DNA from: a bacterium | GTDB lineage: Bacteria > Zhuqueibacterota > Zhuqueibacteria > Residuimicrobiales > Oceaniaggregativiventaceae | NCBI GenBank assembly: GCA_029565675.1 | Contig: JAKQNP010000008.1 | Span: 1 to 64,000 of the forward strand | Direction: 5' to 3' | DNA: 64,000 bases | Shown here: piece by piece, positions 9,737 through 17,529 of the stretch | Position numbering within the stretch: position 1 is the first letter of the stretch | How the letters are laid out: every line of letters starts with the position of its first letter | Notes under the pieces: generated by a model | The model's database searches: none | The model's input: the letters and a program-made list of their open reading frames with translations, nothing else | Told to the model about the DNA's origin: nothing | Made by a program: the position numbers and the translations under genes

Positions 9737-10720
<984 letters not shown>

Positions 10721-10759: not shown

Positions 10760-11407
10760 TTAACCTCTTTTTGTCAATTGCTGGCGATTCTTTTTCACCA
10801 ACAAATCCATATCTTTGAGGATTTTTCGCAGACCAAACCAACCGATCTTAACATGGCCGAACTCTTCTGTATTGAGAATCTTGGCGATTTGGCCTGTTCC
10901 CGCTTGCGGATGTTTGCGAATGATCTGCCGAATTTTGTCTTCCAATGTCACCACCGCAGCCGGCTCGCTGCGCGACGGCTCTGTATGGGTTTCCACCGGG
11001 CTGGCCTGGGCAGCTTCCCGCACTGGAGTCGACTTGACGGTTGATCCCAGACCACGCTCAAAATCCTTGATCGCATCTTCCAGAGTATCAAAGGCTTTGA
11101 GAATATAATGGAACTCGAGCAATTCAAACACTTCATAGACTTCGGGAATCATGCGCACCAATTTCAAATCGCCGCCCTTTTCTCGAATCCCTTTAATTTC
11201 GCTGATAAATATACCCCAACCTGCACTGCTGACATAATCGACATTGCCTAAATCAATGACAATGTTGAAGGAACCCTGTTTCAGCAAACTGCTCAGAGCA
11301 TGCTCAAGTTCCGATGAGGTGGTGGTGTCGATGTAACCACCCACCTTGATCACGGAAATGCTATTGCCTATGCCGGTTTTTTCGATGGACAATTGAATAC
11401 CTTCCAT
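10760..11407 (-). CDS. STAS-domain anti-sigma-factor antagonist with a C-terminal helix-turn-helix-like domain
   Basis: From the ATG at 11407 (GGAG six bases before it) the protein has 215 residues; the frame opens much further up but that part is untranslated leader. Residues 1-110 form a STAS domain of the SpoIIAA/RsbV type, with DLGNVDYVSSAGWG carrying the serine (Ser60/Ser61) that a partner kinase would phosphorylate. A linker of about 45 residues leads to a C-terminal domain (about 152-210; DKIRQIIRKHPQAGTGQIAK...) that resembles residues 738-795 of the kinase-phosphatase fusion encoded just upstream at 11707-15543. Known role of the family: the unphosphorylated STAS protein sequesters the kinase and frees a sigma factor. 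The partner is most likely that fusion protein; no sigma factor gene lies in the window. Confidence 0.9.
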   Translation of the reverse strand: MEGIQLSIEKTGIGNSISVIKVGGYIDTTTSSELEHALSSLLKQGSFNIVIDLGNVDYVSSAGWGIFISEIKGIREKGGDLKLVRMIPEVYEVFELLEFHYILKAFDTLEDAIKDFERGLGSTVKSTPVREAAQASPVETHTEPSRSEPAAVVTLEDKIRQIIRKHPQAGTGQIAKILNTEEFGHVKIGWFGLRKILKDMDLLVKKNRQQLTKRG

Positions 11408-11631
11408 TTTAATCTCCAATTCTTGCCCCTCGCTGGGTTTCTGACCCGCATTCGGCGCCAAGCGCTGAATCGCCAACCCGCTTATAAGGGTGCGATCACC
11501 CGTTGGTGGGAAGAATTCATCCACCCCACATAGAGAATTAGTCTGATGTTTTTCGCTGGCCCTGGTTACCGATCGATCGCCGCATGACAAGCAAAAATTC
11601 CAGTTTTTTAATACTTTATGAAAGCAATGCA
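11408..11631 (-). other. Long 5' leader of the STAS gene
   Basis: About 224 nt separate the predicted transcription start from the ATG. The leader contains several short hairpins, for example GGGTG/CACCC around CGAT and GGGT/ACCC around TTCTG or CAGAA, depending on strand. The reading frame through it is open but ends in a poor protein with no family resemblance. I recognise no known riboswitch core here. Confidence 0.45.
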
Positions 11632-11637
11632 ACTTTA

Positions 11638-11666
11638 AATATAGCGGTTCAGTAAACAAATGTCAA
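11638..11666 (-). promoter_or_regulatory. Sigma-70-type promoter of the STAS-obgE-dprA operon
   Basis: Minus-strand TTGACA (11661-11666, perfect), a 17-bp spacer and TATATT (11638-11643). It lies right after the stop of the kinase-phosphatase gene, so the STAS gene has its own promoter rather than depending on read-through. Confidence 0.85.
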
Positions 11667-11706
11667 TAAAAAAATGGCTGTGCAAGACGAACAAAGCGGT
11701 TGCTGA

Positions 11707-14700
11707 TCAATGAAGAAATTTCTTTGCCCTTTCTATGCTGCGGCGAATATCGCTTCGGTTGGGCGCAATCTGCAACAGCTTTTCCCATTTTTCCACCGCC
11801 CGCAAAAAATCGCCCTGGTTGGCATAAACCACACCGAGATTCTCATAGGCATTGGTGTTTTGTGGATCGATTCGCAGCACATTTTCATAAATTCGCTGGG
11901 CCTCGCGATATTGCTGCATGCGAAAATAAGAGTTGCCCAACAGCATTTGGGCGTGATGATCGTCGGGGAAATCCTTTAAAAACGATCGGGCCGTGTCGAT
12001 CGCCAGGTCAAATCGTTCTTCCTCATATAGCTTGCGCAAATATTTAAACTGGGAATCGCGTATCCCCTTCTGGTCGACTGGCCGTTCTCGGGTGACGATG
12101 ACAGGCTCCGGAACTGGCTTCTCGACGTCACTGTCGAATTGAGTCGGTTTTTGATCCAACAATTCGATCAGATCGTCGAAATCGAGTTTCCGTTCCGAAT
12201 CAACGGCGCTTTTTTGCGCCGCCGGCCGTTGTGGCGGTGCCTGTCTGTCGGCATCATACTTTTGCAATTGGCGGTCTATCTCTTCGTGCAAAAGATTGTC
12301 GCTGATCTGTTCATGAAACTCTTCCGCCGCTGAAGTGAGGTCTTGCCCTTCCTCGATATCCACAAATTCATCGAAAACATCCTGCAAGAGACCATTTTCG
12401 CCGGAAGATCGATCTTCATCCGTGACAACGATTGCTTCTTCAACAGCGCTTTTATCGATCGGAACCCGGTCGAGATCTTTATTTTTCTTCGGCTCTTCCA
12501 GTCCCTCGCCCATCTGGATCAATTGAACAAAATCGAGTTCCTCAATATCCACTTCACGGTTCGCGTGCGGCTCGATATCAATATCCTGCTCGAGGTTTAA
12601 ATTTGCAGCATCCGTTTCGGCGGCTGTTCCGATGCTGGCCAAGGATTCGGTTATTGCAGAATCATCTGACAACCCGGAATCCTCGTCCGCAGCCTGCTCT
12701 GCATCCGCCGTCAACAACTCATCCTCGCCGAAAAACAGGGTGGAATCGAGCCCTTGTGGTGCTGCTTCTGGTTTTTGTTCGCTTTTCTGAAGGGATTCCG
12801 GCTCCTCCTTAACCTGTTCTTTTTTAGCCAGGACCGTAGAACGCTGGTAGAATTTGCGCTTATCCAGCAAATCCTCCAATGTTGCGGCGAACAAATCTGC
12901 CGGCTCGACAGTCAGCAGATCGAATGGCGCTTTCGGTTCGCGCGATACAGCTTCATCTTTGGGCGGTTCGGGCATAGCCGCTCTTGCCTCTGCAGGCGCA
13001 GTCGTCTGCCTGGGTGTATCGGCCATGACATATTTTTCCTCTTCTTCCCCAGGCGGATTATGAAAGCCGGCTTTTTGAATGATTACCCGGCCGTCAATCG
13101 TTAGCATCGGTGTGCCGGGCGGTTTGATGCGCTTGCGCTTGCGGCCGCCGCGCATGATAAAAGCTTCGCGCAATTCATGGGTATTCAAACGCGAACGCAC
13201 CAACTCTTCATAAATCCGCGAAGTGCTGATTTCAACATTGCCATAGTAATCGGTATTCAACTCTTCAGCGATGCGTTTGGCGCCATATTCCGGAAATCTC
13301 CGAATGATATCGTAGATCTTCGTTTTTTCTTCAATGCTGAGGTGACGCGCTTCTATCGGCTCTTCTTCCGGAAGAAGGCTTTCGTCGACCTCTATCCCTT
13401 TTTGCTCGAATATTTCTTTATATTTGTTATAGGCATAGATGGAGATGCCCGCTTTTTCGCACGCCTCTTTGATGGTCCCGCCAGCCTGCACCGCTTGATA
13501 GACATCTTTGGCGCGTTTGCGTTCGAGTTTATCGGCTGTGGTCTTTTCTTTGATGCAAACCAGAGTGATATCATCGTTTTGTGGATTGCCTTCGGTAAAA
13601 GAAAGAATCTCTTGATGCAGACTGTCGACAAACTCGTCGGCCGGTCTTTTTCCCATAGTTCGTATCGACTGCAGAAACCGTTCTTCGCCGAACAGATCGC
13701 GCTGTCCGTTCATCGCTTCGGTGATGCCGTCCGTATAGATGATCAGGATATCATCCTCATTCAACGAAAGCGTATCGGATTCGATCGAATTGCGAAAAAG
13801 GTTGTTGTCGGGCAATGAGATCCCGATCGGAAATCCGCGCGGATTGAGGTAATAGGTCTTGTTGCTGCTGGCGCGAAACAGAATCATCGGATTGTGACCG
13901 GCGCTGGCATAATTCAAGCGCCTTCGTTTGGAGTCGATGATCACATAAAAAAGGGTGACAAACATACCCTTTTTCATATCGTTGACAATAAAATCGTTTA
14001 CCCTTGCCAAAACCTCGGCGGCATCTTTGACGCCGCGCGCTTCTGTGCGCAGAGCGGTGCGAATCATGGTCATGACGAGAGACCCGGGAACGCCTTTGCC
14101 AGAAACGTCGCCGACAACGATCCCGAGGCTGTCTTTGTCCACCTCCACAAAGTCAAAATAATCGCCGCCGACCTCTTTCGCCGCCTCATAGTAGGAGACA
14201 ATCTGATAACCTTCGATGTCGGGAAATTCCGAAGGCAACAAGGTCTGCTGAATTTCCTGGGCGACCTGCATCTCCTTTTGCAGGCGTTCCTGCTCAGCCA
14301 AATTCTTTTGGGAAATGCGCAATTTTTTCGTGATGTCGCTGAAAGCCTGGGCGATTTCGCCAACCTCGGTGGAGGAGTCGATGTCCATTTCGTCGACCAC
14401 CCCGGGTTGTCCCATCTGCTTGACCCATTCAGCCAGCCGGCGAAATGGATTCATGACCACATAGATCAGCACAAACAAACCCGCTGCACCAATGGCCAAA
14501 ATCAAGAGCACAATTTTCAGCATTCCCATTCGATTGGCGACGATTTCGGCACGGATTTGCGCATACTCGATTAAAAAATGGGCGGTGCAAAGCGGATTCG
14601 CCTCGACGCTTTTGACCGGATAGACAATATCGATCACCTTGCCATGATCTTGAAACGAATAGACCACTGCATCTTGCGCCACATATCGGTGATCAGATGG

Positions 14701-15543
14701 AAGCGTGAAACGGTCAATGAGCGGCTGCAAAAACTCGCGATTGCTGCTGGCCAACACCCGAGAAAAATTATCAACCACAAAGGCGCTGTGCATCAAATCG
14801 CTGTGCTTGGAAAGAATGAGAGAATTGATCGGTTTGGCCGCACTTTCCAGAACTTCCAGATCATAGCTGCCTTCGAGCAACATCTCTTGCAATTGCGTCT
14901 GCGATAGGGCGCTCATGTTGTTGGATATTTCACCTGCCAGATAAGAGCAGGCGTTTCGACCCTGGTCGAGATAGGCGTCCATCACCTGGTGGCGCGCCTG
15001 CAAAAATGTAAACGCATACCCGGCCGCCAGGATAGAGGATAAAACAGCAAGAGAAATCAACCAATAACGAGCCTTCAAGCTCAGCGGAATGGCAGAGACT
15101 GAAAACCGGGTTTTTTTCCGCTCATCAAAATGCTTGGTCAACCACAGCTCGTTGCCTTCTTCACTCTTGCGATAATCGATGTTGTCGAGCAACCGCCGCA
15201 TGATAAAAATACCCAGTCCCCCCTTTTTGCCGATTTCGACATAGCGCTGGAGGTCTGGATCGTTTACCTGGCGGGGATCAAAATATTTGCCTTGATCGAT
15301 CAGCAGGATGGTGAGGCTTTGTTTCTTGATGATGGTGCGAATGGTGATGTCGCCGTCCCAATCGCGATAGGCGTGCTTGATGATATTGGTCGCAGCTTCA
15401 TCGATCGAGAGTTTGAAGGCGTTTATGATGCGGTCGGGAATACCATGCCGTTTGCCCACGCGGGTCACAAAATCCCGCAGGTCGCCGAGGAAATCGATTT
15501 TTGCGGGAACACGCAGCTGTTCTTTTATCACACTCCGAAACAA
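11707..15543 (-). CDS. RsbW-like kinase / membrane sensor / SpoIIE-RsbU phosphatase fusion with TPR tail
   Basis: This 1278-residue protein joins parts that are usually separate. Residues 1-140 are an RsbW-type GHKL kinase with the N-box DEAATNIIKHAY (48-59) and G-box KKGGLGIFIM (106-115). Membrane helices at about 160-182 and 341-363 flank an extracytoplasmic domain of about 155 residues, followed by a HAMP-like segment and coiled coil (364-430). A PP2C/SpoIIE phosphatase spans about 430-665 with GGDYFDF, GDVSGKGVPG, YTDGITEA and NDDIT, which hold the metal-binding aspartates. A helix-turn-helix-like segment (675-715), the domain shared with the STAS protein (738-795), a long acidic linker and TPR repeats (about 1160-1278) complete it. 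It would both phosphorylate and dephosphorylate a STAS antagonist in response to an external signal (inference). The start is a TTG with AAGGAA upstream; a GTG four codons later is possible. It begins 15 bp after the PorV-like gene. Confidence 0.93.
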   Translation of the reverse strand: MFRSVIKEQLRVPAKIDFLGDLRDFVTRVGKRHGIPDRIINAFKLSIDEAATNIIKHAYRDWDGDITIRTIIKKQSLTILLIDQGKYFDPRQVNDPDLQRYVEIGKKGGLGIFIMRRLLDNIDYRKSEEGNELWLTKHFDERKKTRFSVSAIPLSLKARYWLISLAVLSSILAAGYAFTFLQARHQVMDAYLDQGRNACSYLAGEISNNMSALSQTQLQEMLLEGSYDLEVLESAAKPINSLILSKHSDLMHSAFVVDNFSRVLASSNREFLQPLIDRFTLPSDHRYVAQDAVVYSFQDHGKVIDIVYPVKSVEANPLCTAHFLIEYAQIRAEIVANRMGMLKIVLLILAIGAAGLFVLIYVVMNPFRRLAEWVKQMGQPGVVDEMDIDSSTEVGEIAQAFSDITKKLRISQKNLAEQERLQKEMQVAQEIQQTLLPSEFPDIEGYQIVSYYEAAKEVGGDYFDFVEVDKDSLGIVVGDVSGKGVPGSLVMTMIRTALRTEARGVKDAAEVLARVNDFIVNDMKKGMFVTLFYVIIDSKRRRLNYASAGHNPMILFRASSNKTYYLNPRGFPIGISLPDNNLFRNSIESDTLSLNEDDILIIYTDGITEAMNGQRDLFGEERFLQSIRTMGKRPADEFVDSLHQEILSFTEGNPQNDDITLVCIKEKTTADKLERKRAKDVYQAVQAGGTIKEACEKAGISIYAYNKYKEIFEQKGIEVDESLLPEEEPIEARHLSIEEKTKIYDIIRRFPEYGAKRIAEELNTDYYGNVEISTSRIYEELVRSRLNTHELREAFIMRGGRKRKRIKPPGTPMLTIDGRVIIQKAGFHNPPGEEEEKYVMADTPRQTTAPAEARAAMPEPPKDEAVSREPKAPFDLLTVEPADLFAATLEDLLDKRKFYQRSTVLAKKEQVKEEPESLQKSEQKPEAAPQGLDSTLFFGEDELLTADAEQAADEDSGLSDDSAITESLASIGTAAETDAANLNLEQDIDIEPHANREVDIEELDFVQLIQMGEGLEEPKKNKDLDRVPIDKSAVEEAIVVTDEDRSSGENGLLQDVFDEFVDIEEGQDLTSAAEEFHEQISDNLLHEEIDRQLQKYDADRQAPPQRPAAQKSAVDSERKLDFDDLIELLDQKPTQFDSDVEKPVPEPVIVTRERPVDQKGIRDSQFKYLRKLYEEERFDLAIDTARSFLKDFPDDHHAQMLLGNSYFRMQQYREAQRIYENVLRIDPQNTNAYENLGVVYANQGDFLRAVEKWEKLLQIAPNRSDIRRSIERAKKFLH

Positions 15544-15558
15544 GAACCGTTTTCCTTT

Positions 15559-17529
15559 TTATCTGTTCGAGGAAGAACCGGATTGCTGTTTTTGCATGCG
15601 TTCGCGCACCACATCGATACCGCGCAAAATGGCGCGATTGTTCGGCTGCAACTTTAACGCCTCTTCATAATAGCGGAGAGAAGCTTGATAATCCCCGCGC
15701 ACAAATGCATCCGACCCTTTGGAATAGAGTTCGAGCACTTCCGGCGTCATCTCCATATCGCGGGCATTGGCGCGGGCAAAGGTTTCCTGATATTTTTTCC
15801 GCAAGGCATTGTTTTCCGGATCATATTGCAGAGCGTTGCGGTAGAGCTCTGCAGCGGCTGCCCATTCCTTGTTCTGCTCCTTGATCACGGCACGGCGAAC
15901 CAGATCATCCTTATCGAGCGATTTTTCGAGGGCCCGAATGCGGTTTTCGATGAACGATTCTGCTGTCGGATTTCCGCGCGCCAATCGCTTGGCCTGGGTA
16001 AAGGTGTTGATCGCTTCAGAAGTTCGGCCTTGCTGGGCCAACTCAATCCCTTGCGTGGCCAGGCGATTGATCTTTTGGCGCAGATCCGTTTCGGCCTTGT
16101 CTTTCAAATCTTGAATATCGGCACGACCAGGGTCTAAATCAAGTGCTTTCTGGCACTCATCGATGACGGCAGGATAGTCCTCGTCTTGATAGTAAGCCAA
16201 GGCCTTCTGATGGTGGTCGCGAATGGCTTGCTCACGCAGCCGCCGTTGCGACTCCGCTTCATCCCGTTGACGGGCCAATCGCTCCTGCTCAATCCTTTTG
16301 TCCTCGATCGCTTTCTCGATCTGATCGCGCATGGCGCGCGCTTCACTGAAATCCGGATGATCACCTGTCTCATCAAAAGCGAGGACTTTATAGATTTCAT
16401 TCGCCGCGCGCTCAAATTCACCGAGGTTGATATACGAGCGGGTTTTGCTCATCGACGTGTTGATCATTTCCTGTTGCGCCTGGGCCATTTGTGTGCGGAT
16501 TTCCCGTTCGATGCGTTCCATTTCCTGCTGGCGATAATCGGCCAGGCGTTCACTGCGGGTTTTGCCCACATTGATGATCGCTGAAATGCGGTGGCTGTTG
16601 CCCAGCACCGCATCATAGCCGCTCCAGTACGAATAATCCAGCTGCATGCCGATCACCTTGAGCCCCACTCCATAGGTGAGCTGCCCATCATACAAGCCGG
16701 TGCGCACCATGGCCGTGCCGCGATAACCGTATTCAATACCGGCAAAGAAACGGGCGGGGACGCTCCGTTCTTCGCTTTTGCTCAGTTCCAGGGCCAGCTT
16801 GAATCCCGAATCCTCTGCGCCCAGCGGAAAATTCCGCATCACCCCGACGCGAAAATTGCGCGGGGTCACATCTTCGTAATCGATGATCCGCATCGAGCGC
16901 GGCAACAGGTTTTGCGCGTTGATCCCCACCACGGTATGGCGTAAACCCAAATAATCAAGTTGCGGCATAAAAAGGAAGCCCAGATCGGCGCCAAACGCAC
17001 TCCCTACCAGACTCGATGGCTGCATCGTCGCGGCGTCTTCAGGGCCGGGAAAAACCGCTCGTTCAAATTTCAGCGTCGAGCCGATTGCCAGCCAATCGAA
17101 CACATGCAGTCCGTAACCGAGCAAAAACAAGGTGCGGCTGTAATTCATTGTCCCCAACAACGCCGCGCTTTGCGTTCCCCGACTCTCGATATCATCGCTG
17201 GCCAAACGCAGCATGCCAAAAGAAAGTGAACCCCGAAATAGAGTGGGATAGGCAAAAGCGATACAATTGTACTGCCCACCATAGGGCAAATTCTGCATAT
17301 AGAACGCCATGCTCATCTGCGGCACTTGCTCAAGGGCGGCAGGATTCCAATAGAGCGCAAAGGGATCGCTGGCAGCAGCCACATTCGCACCGCCTATCGC
17401 CATGGCATTGGCCCCCACCGGCAGATCGAAGATGTCGAGCGTCCCTCCCCATCCGCTCGATCGCTGAGCCCGGCCAACCGCAGCAAGAACAAAGAGACCG
17501 ATGCATATTTTTATCAGAGTTGTCTTCAT
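15559..17529 (-). CDS. PorV/UPF0164-type outer-membrane barrel protein with C-terminal TPR domain
   Basis: The 656-residue protein starts with a signal peptide (MKTTLIKICIGLFVLAAVGRAQ). Residues about 25-330 match the PorV/PorQ-type barrel pattern: LPVGANAMAIGGANVAAASD, YWNPAALEQV and many short alternating strands. A coiled coil rich in Arg, Gln and Glu follows (about 330-420), then TPR units (about 425-656), presumably periplasmic. In Bacteroidota PorV/LptO acts in type IX secretion, binding cargo C-terminal signals. The gene directly upstream encodes a giant secreted protein with a FlgD/type IX-like C-terminus, so a shuttle-cargo relation is plausible (inference). No Shine-Dalgarno is evident. 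It is cotranscribed with both neighbours (58 bp and 15 bp gaps). Confidence 0.85.
   Translation of the reverse strand: MKTTLIKICIGLFVLAAVGRAQRSSGWGGTLDIFDLPVGANAMAIGGANVAAASDPFALYWNPAALEQVPQMSMAFYMQNLPYGGQYNCIAFAYPTLFRGSLSFGMLRLASDDIESRGTQSAALLGTMNYSRTLFLLGYGLHVFDWLAIGSTLKFERAVFPGPEDAATMQPSSLVGSAFGADLGFLFMPQLDYLGLRHTVVGINAQNLLPRSMRIIDYEDVTPRNFRVGVMRNFPLGAEDSGFKLALELSKSEERSVPARFFAGIEYGYRGTAMVRTGLYDGQLTYGVGLKVIGMQLDYSYWSGYDAVLGNSHRISAIINVGKTRSERLADYRQQEMERIEREIRTQMAQAQQEMINTSMSKTRSYINLGEFERAANEIYKVLAFDETGDHPDFSEARAMRDQIEKAIEDKRIEQERLARQRDEAESQRRLREQAIRDHHQKALAYYQDEDYPAVIDECQKALDLDPGRADIQDLKDKAETDLRQKINRLATQGIELAQQGRTSEAINTFTQAKRLARGNPTAESFIENRIRALEKSLDKDDLVRRAVIKEQNKEWAAAAELYRNALQYDPENNALRKKYQETFARANARDMEMTPEVLELYSKGSDAFVRGDYQASLRYYEEALKLQPNNRAILRGIDVVRERMQKQQSGSSSNR

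Follow-up and report, generated by a model that had tools for sequence, protein, structure and literature searches.

Fusions of an RsbW-like kinase with a PP2C phosphatase are already known from SypE, HsbR, CrsR and Rv1364c (PMC3610818, PMC4517449, PMC6482189, PMC12143880). In Vibrio fischeri, SypE has the layout kinase-REC-phosphatase and acts as the switch for SypA, whose gene opens the syp polysaccharide locus (PMC3610818, PMC4517449, PMC10162802); unphosphorylated SypA is the active form, and its downstream action was reported as unknown (PMC4517449). Biofilm is under the control of HsbR-HsbA (PMC6482189) and likewise of the SiaABC pathway (PMC7647112).

Here, we analysed a window of 64,000 nucleotides from a bacterium placed in the KSB1 group by its named homologues, in which both enzymes are joined on one membrane protein, hereafter KP. 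As in SypE, an N-terminal RsbW-like kinase and a C-terminal PP2C phosphatase lie in the same order in one chain; the likeness extends to a STAS protein as (here predicted) substrate and to a STAS gene standing first in an exopolysaccharide locus, which is sigma54-dependent in the case of SypE-SypA (PMC3610818, PMC4517449, PMC10162802). However, SypE has a receiver domain between its enzymes at the place where KP has a membrane sensor, and SypA is a lone STAS domain, whereas there are two STAS proteins here, STAS1 and STAS2, each with a basic helix-turn-helix (HTH) tail. Moreover, KP carries HTH and TPR modules, unlike SypE. HsbR-HsbA of Pseudomonas and CrsR-CrsA of Shewanella also have PP2C and an RsbW-like kinase in one chain and a single STAS target, but their order is REC-PP2C-kinase, their kinase domain also binds RpoS and no HTH has been described. 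Rv1364c of Mycobacterium tuberculosis unites sensor, PP2C, kinase and STAS in one chain (PMC12143880). It differs from KP in its PAS sensor and in a STAS domain fused in cis, and no HTH has been described for it either. The membrane sensor-PP2C half of KP resembles SiaA of the Pseudomonas SiaABC pathway, its 71.5 bits being far under the cut-off of 700 of this NCBIfam model; the kinase of that pathway, SiaB, is a separate protein. Finally, CapK-CapS pairs an RsbW-like kinase with a STAS protein that has a C-terminal HTH, is phosphorylated on the equivalent serine and controls transcription (PMC13373217); its HTH is, however, winged and was compared with MarR, it has no phosphatase or membrane sensor, and it controls immune operons.

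The first-pass annotation of this DNA had held that the two opposing activities are normally separate proteins, which is only partly right and does not stand as "always" in view of the published fusions SypE, HsbR/CrsR and Rv1364c. In the open-access literature we found no description of a membrane-sensor form of this fusion, of a transposase-type HTH common to an enzyme and its substrates, or of a two-STAS set with near-constant presence in one phylum, and nothing on point about partner switching in KSB1 or Calditrichota.

KP carries an intact kinase and an intact phosphatase

In the open reading frame listing of the window, KP is an uninterrupted, complete frame of 1278 codons (Table 1). Its TTG start at 15543 is preceded by AAGGAAA and lies 16 nt past the stop of the preceding gene. 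Pfam assigns HATPase_c_2 to the kinase domain with 87.6 bits (cut-off 27.4) and SpoIIE to the phosphatase domain with 178 bits (cut-off 25). The kinase aligns with RsbW, its best match (6m36, E 4e-14), and with SpoIIAB via the same motifs, and shows the HATPase_c_2 fold, the N-box Glu and Asn and the G1/G2 motifs of RsbW/SpoIIAB-type kinases. The phosphatase, which has the SpoIIE domain and metal-binding aspartates of the SpoIIE/RsbU PP2C group, aligns with RssB and Rv1364c, the PP2C domain of the latter being among the closest solved structures.

Table 1. Features of the KP locus (window coordinates; aa numbering of the respective protein)
Feature	Position	Strand	Basis or remark
Giant secreted repeat protein, 3591 aa	17588..28363	-	precedes the PorV/TPR gene at the loci read
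PorV/PorQ-family outer-membrane protein (type IX secretion-like) fused to TPR repeats	15559..17529	-	immediately ahead of KP at the loci read
KP, bifunctional kinase/phosphatase membrane protein, 1278 aa	11707..15543	-	Pfam, orthologs, invariant residues
KP RsbW/SpoIIAB-type HATPase_c_2 serine kinase domain, aa 13-137	15133..15507	-	Pfam; RsbW 6m36
KP transmembrane segments, aa 160-181 and 338-367, with extracytoplasmic region, aa ~182-337, between	14443..15066	-	hydropathy
KP HAMP-like segment, aa 359-401, joined to the phosphatase by a helical linker	14341..14469	-	Pfam, weak
KP SpoIIE/RsbU-type PP2C phosphatase domain, aa 470-665	13549..14136	-	Pfam, invariant residues
KP helix-turn-helix 1, transposase type, aa ~676-722	13378..13518	-	profile matches, model
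KP helix-turn-helix 2 (HTH2), aa ~735-797, common to STAS1 and STAS2	13153..13341	-	BLAST, hhalign, profiles
KP linker, acidic and variable, ~320 aa (aa ~840-1160)	12064..13026	-	sits before the TPR repeats
KP C-terminal TPR repeats, aa 1165-1268	11740..12051	-	Pfam
STAS1 sigma70-type promoter, TTGACA-17-TATATT	11638..11666	-	predicted; sequence match
STAS1, 215 aa: STAS domain and HTH-like tail; predicted KP substrate	10760..11407	-	Pfam, SpoIIAA fold
STAS1 Ser61, position of the phosphorylated S58 of SpoIIAA	11225..11227	-	alignment
STAS1 basic HTH-like tail, homologous to KP HTH2	10763..10948	-	BLAST, hhalign, profile

Loss of key kinase or phosphatase residues on careful alignment had been named beforehand as an outcome that would speak against KP as an enzyme. 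Such a loss is absent, since kinase residues E49, N53, H57, D83, G85 and GGLG 108-111 and phosphatase residues D461, D479, D605 and D658 never vary in 17 orthologs; D461, a metal-site residue, lies just N-terminal to the SpoIIE match. The placement of kinase and phosphatase on one membrane protein of this length is thus borne out by Pfam domains, intact active sites and orthologs. The kinase and phosphatase action of KP is strongly supported by these sequence data, from which we infer phosphotransfer itself. It should be noted that the genome codes for several stand-alone RsbW-like kinases, 12 SpoIIE-type phosphatases and 9 STAS proteins, so that KP may have other partners or be subject to cross-talk.

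The two hydrophobic segments flank an extracytoplasmic part of ~155 aa, and kinase and phosphatase should therefore both be cytoplasmic. No receiver domain was matched by Pfam in the central part of KP, which holds the two transmembrane segments and the extracytoplasmic region instead. The latter gets no domain name in KP itself; in relatives, a single-Cache domain is recognisable between the membrane segments, and the proposal that the extracytoplasmic domain sets the switch appears reasonable. The HAMP match of KP (16.5 bits) is under the Pfam cut-off, and relatives score above it. Kinase, sensor, phosphatase and TPR repeats had been listed correctly at first, while the tandem HTH, its partial copy in the STAS protein and the long acidic linker had been missed.

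Of 60 related genomes, nearly all code for a KP ortholog, with identities of 45-70%. Full-length orthologs recur without stops, by which a chance or assembly-fused frame was ruled out. In one long-contig genome (L064, G017:C5:973000-989000), the genes for KP, the PorV/TPR protein and the giant protein are all fragmented, probably through sequencing frameshifts.

STAS1 retains the phospho-acceptor serine

The adjoining STAS protein had first been given a TTG start at 11659, which is too early: the true start is most likely ATG 11407, which has GGAG ahead, agrees with the orthologs and gives 215 aa. The 299 bp between KP and STAS1 hold the predicted sigma70-type promoter of STAS1; a site of this type precedes STAS1 in 13 of 15 loci, and a sigma54-type site in none of them.

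The STAS domain scores 63.8 bits in Pfam, and the AlphaFold model of STAS1 matches the SpoIIAA/RsbV folds, with a TM of 0.89 on the SpoIIAA target. Ser61 pairs with an alanine in 1tid, a position at which 1th8 has the S58 serine of SpoIIAA, and it is invariant among the 16 STAS1 orthologs aligned. STAS1 thus has both the fold and the phosphorylatable serine, equivalent to SpoIIAA S58, of an anti-sigma antagonist, as expected for the substrate that the first reading had seen in it. Directly downstream of STAS1, many loci have obgE (9737-10711 on the minus strand in the window); in Bacillus, Obg is connected with the partner switch of sigma-B.

The second half of a tandem HTH is shared by KP and its putative substrates

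The tandem HTH of KP sits between the phosphatase and the acidic linker and is modelled as two helical units. Each of the 12 KP tandem-HTH regions tested aligns with the IS481 transposase model over its N-terminal part (best E 4e-17), and most also hit HTH families of Pfam. Against this model, KP reaches 37.5 bits (cut-off 224) and covers only profile positions 4-124 of 284; no DDE/catalytic transposase domain follows the tandem HTH, and KP is therefore no member of IS481, which combines tandem HTH and DDE. An inserted transposon was rejected as an explanation of the KP module, which lacks a DDE domain behind it and is conserved throughout the phylum.

HTH2 recurs as the C-terminus of STAS1, as indicated by BLAST (E 6e-6), by hhalign (probability 97.8, E 1.2e-12) and by a profile made from STAS1 tails only, which scores KP at 27.1 bits, the top of 2000 shuffles being 6.4. 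With +5 to +16, the STAS tails carry a strong positive charge next to an acidic STAS domain, and the KP copy is near neutral. In predicted structures, the STAS tails and the KP tandem HTH both appear as helical HTH-like modules. In profile searches of the PDB, neither the tandem HTH nor the STAS tail had a significant match among solved structures, and Foldseek found nothing significant in the PDB for the HTH model (best E 0.83). Pax5/Pax6 and Tc3 transposase DNA-binding domains were among the top rows of VIA, at Z 5.5-6.2, a range also reached by common arrangements. From sequence and models, it is plausible that the HTH-like STAS tails bind DNA; the HTH shared by KP, STAS1 and STAS2 may dock the enzyme and its putative substrates, bind nucleic acid, or both.

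A three-protein set is nearly constant in the phylum

Using a profile of the tail domain, we found it at exactly three places in the genome, namely STAS1, KP and STAS2, the last on another contig (C46). All but one of the 82 genomes of the phylum (KSB1 group) carry it at least once, mostly in three copies: exactly three are found in 61 genomes, four in 8 and fewer in the others, which are largely less complete assemblies. The listed matches fall in open reading frames of STAS1/STAS2 size or KP size. The KP and STAS2 genes are unlinked, and their connection is drawn from the common tail domain and the co-occurrence.

STAS2 was recognised in 19 of the 20 fetched loci. In the genome studied, the order is glgA, STAS2, a Wza-type export gene, a Wzc-type Wzz/AAA_31 gene, and genes for a sugar epimerase, a sugar transferase and a glycosyltransferase. 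A Wza-like gene comes after STAS2 in 18 of the 19 loci, 17 times directly and once with an extra frame between; at the remaining locus, the listing has a competing reverse-strand frame ahead of the Wzc-like gene. With few exceptions among the loci read, STAS2 is followed by wza, wzc and genes for an epimerase and a sugar transferase. The serine motif SSAGW is kept in all 19 STAS2 proteins, which makes STAS2 a putative KP substrate together with the shared tail; from the gene order, polysaccharide would be the output of the switch. All 19 end in a nearly constant, basic-aromatic sequence (KRYRFYRSR-like; L182:9066-9818 and relatives), suggestive of a binding peptide.

The sequence TGGCR-N5/6-TTGC is the textbook sigma54 consensus. 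Such a site, noticed in two STAS2 loci before all 19 were tested, lies at most 250 nt upstream of STAS2 in 11 loci and was not found in 8, compared with a mean of 0.26 in random windows and with 6 of 235 other genes. The genome has rpoN.

Conserved neighbours upstream of KP

The class and Calditrichota share the gene order giant, PorV/TPR, KP, STAS1, and obgE and dprA often come next in the class. The first three genes keep their order also in Latescibacterota. The giant protein, conserved upstream of KP through the class, has many repeats and a C-terminal segment of FNYPNPF type. A Latescibacterota homologue (L083:5956-10362) unites kinase, Cache-HAMP, PP2C, HTH and three STAS domains in one chain, and two further STAS genes lie downstream of it. 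Longer kinase-phosphatase paralogs of 1638 and 1849 aa (L074:2301-7217 and L075:2430-7979) have large TPR arrays; no STAS1 homologue was found in the fetched stretch around them.

Discussion

The explanation that we favour, and hold to be reasonably probable, is that KP is a membrane-bound switch of the SypE type, which sets the phosphorylation of STAS1 and STAS2 and thereby surface polysaccharide. It draws on computed domains, catalytic residues, the phospho-site, the common domain, the phylum-wide triad and gene order; phosphotransfer, the direction of the switch, the polysaccharide output and the function of the tails are what we infer from them. An extracytoplasmic Cache-like domain would receive a signal and the HAMP-like/coiled linker would pass it on, the two deciding whether the kinase or the phosphatase activity of KP wins; linker-driven dimerisation has been proposed as a general activation route for such phosphatases (PMC12143880). 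The N-terminal RsbW-like domain would phosphorylate the conserved serine of STAS1 and STAS2, and the PP2C domain would dephosphorylate the same residue. The two STAS proteins would be two outputs, STAS2 being placed to act on polysaccharide. The transposase-type HTH module would mark KP, STAS1 and STAS2 as one pathway, either docking the three proteins or, in STAS1 and STAS2, binding nucleic acid, and phosphorylation of the STAS proteins would then alter exopolysaccharide expression or assembly.

A sharper form of this explanation, compatible with it, would follow CapK-CapS: STAS1 and STAS2 would be DNA-binding repressors or activators, with dimerisation and binding set by phosphorylation and with no need for a sigma factor or another effector. 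The basic charge of the tails next to an acidic STAS domain, their place in a transposase-type HTH family and their modelled helical fold agree with this, and in CapS a STAS-wHTH repressor under the control of an RsbW-like kinase has been published (PMC13373217). However, the same domain, near neutral, is found on membrane-bound KP, a domain common to enzyme and substrates suits docking equally well, and neither VIA (best Z 6.2) nor Foldseek (E > 0.8) gave more than a weak fold match; we regard this form as a possibility, with the balance somewhat against it. Rather doubtful, in our estimate, is the wider claim of a phylum-wide, sigma-factor-independent switch in which KP would both phosphorylate and dephosphorylate two DNA-binding STAS regulators and so couple outside sensing directly to exopolysaccharide transcription, enzyme and substrates using a common domesticated transposase-type HTH.

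The first-pass annotation had expected a sigma factor partner, and in a classical partner switch the KP kinase would be an anti-sigma factor that keeps an alternative sigma factor at the membrane, unphosphorylated STAS freeing the latter. The fused kinase domain of HsbR and CrsR does bind RpoS (PMC6482189). RsbW, the top match of the KP kinase, is itself an anti-sigma factor, and the genome has 13 sigma70-region-2 genes, yet none of the loci examined has a sigma factor gene next to KP or STAS2. Exopolysaccharide and surface genes are the conserved companions, STAS2 at the head of the exopolysaccharide operon being the conserved link in place of a sigma partner. The site ahead of STAS2 resembles a promoter of the sigma54 type, a class that is not known to be targeted by RsbW-like anti-sigma factors. 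We consider this classical switch unlikely, and the need for a sigma partner is not supported. The output could instead be surface-protein secretion, given that the constant neighbours of KP code for giant secreted and PorV-like proteins; KP would then govern export or anchoring of the giant protein via the PorV-like protein, not polysaccharide. This leaves the third copy of the private domain, at the head of an exopolysaccharide operon, unexplained, and a PorV protein that, judged by its family, should be extracytoplasmic could not meet the cytoplasmic TPR of KP; TPR repeats in both proteins and the gene order kept in the class, in Calditrichota and, without STAS1, in Latescibacterota speak for it, and we judge it improbable on the whole.

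Under the SypE-type reading, the HTH-like tails on STAS proteins make a direct nucleic-acid route testable. The KP set is a candidate master switch for surface polysaccharide in uncultured bacteria of the KSB1 group, conserved across the phylum, and its private enzyme-substrate domain offers a clean case for the question of how such switches stay specific when one cell has 12 phosphatases and 9 STAS proteins.
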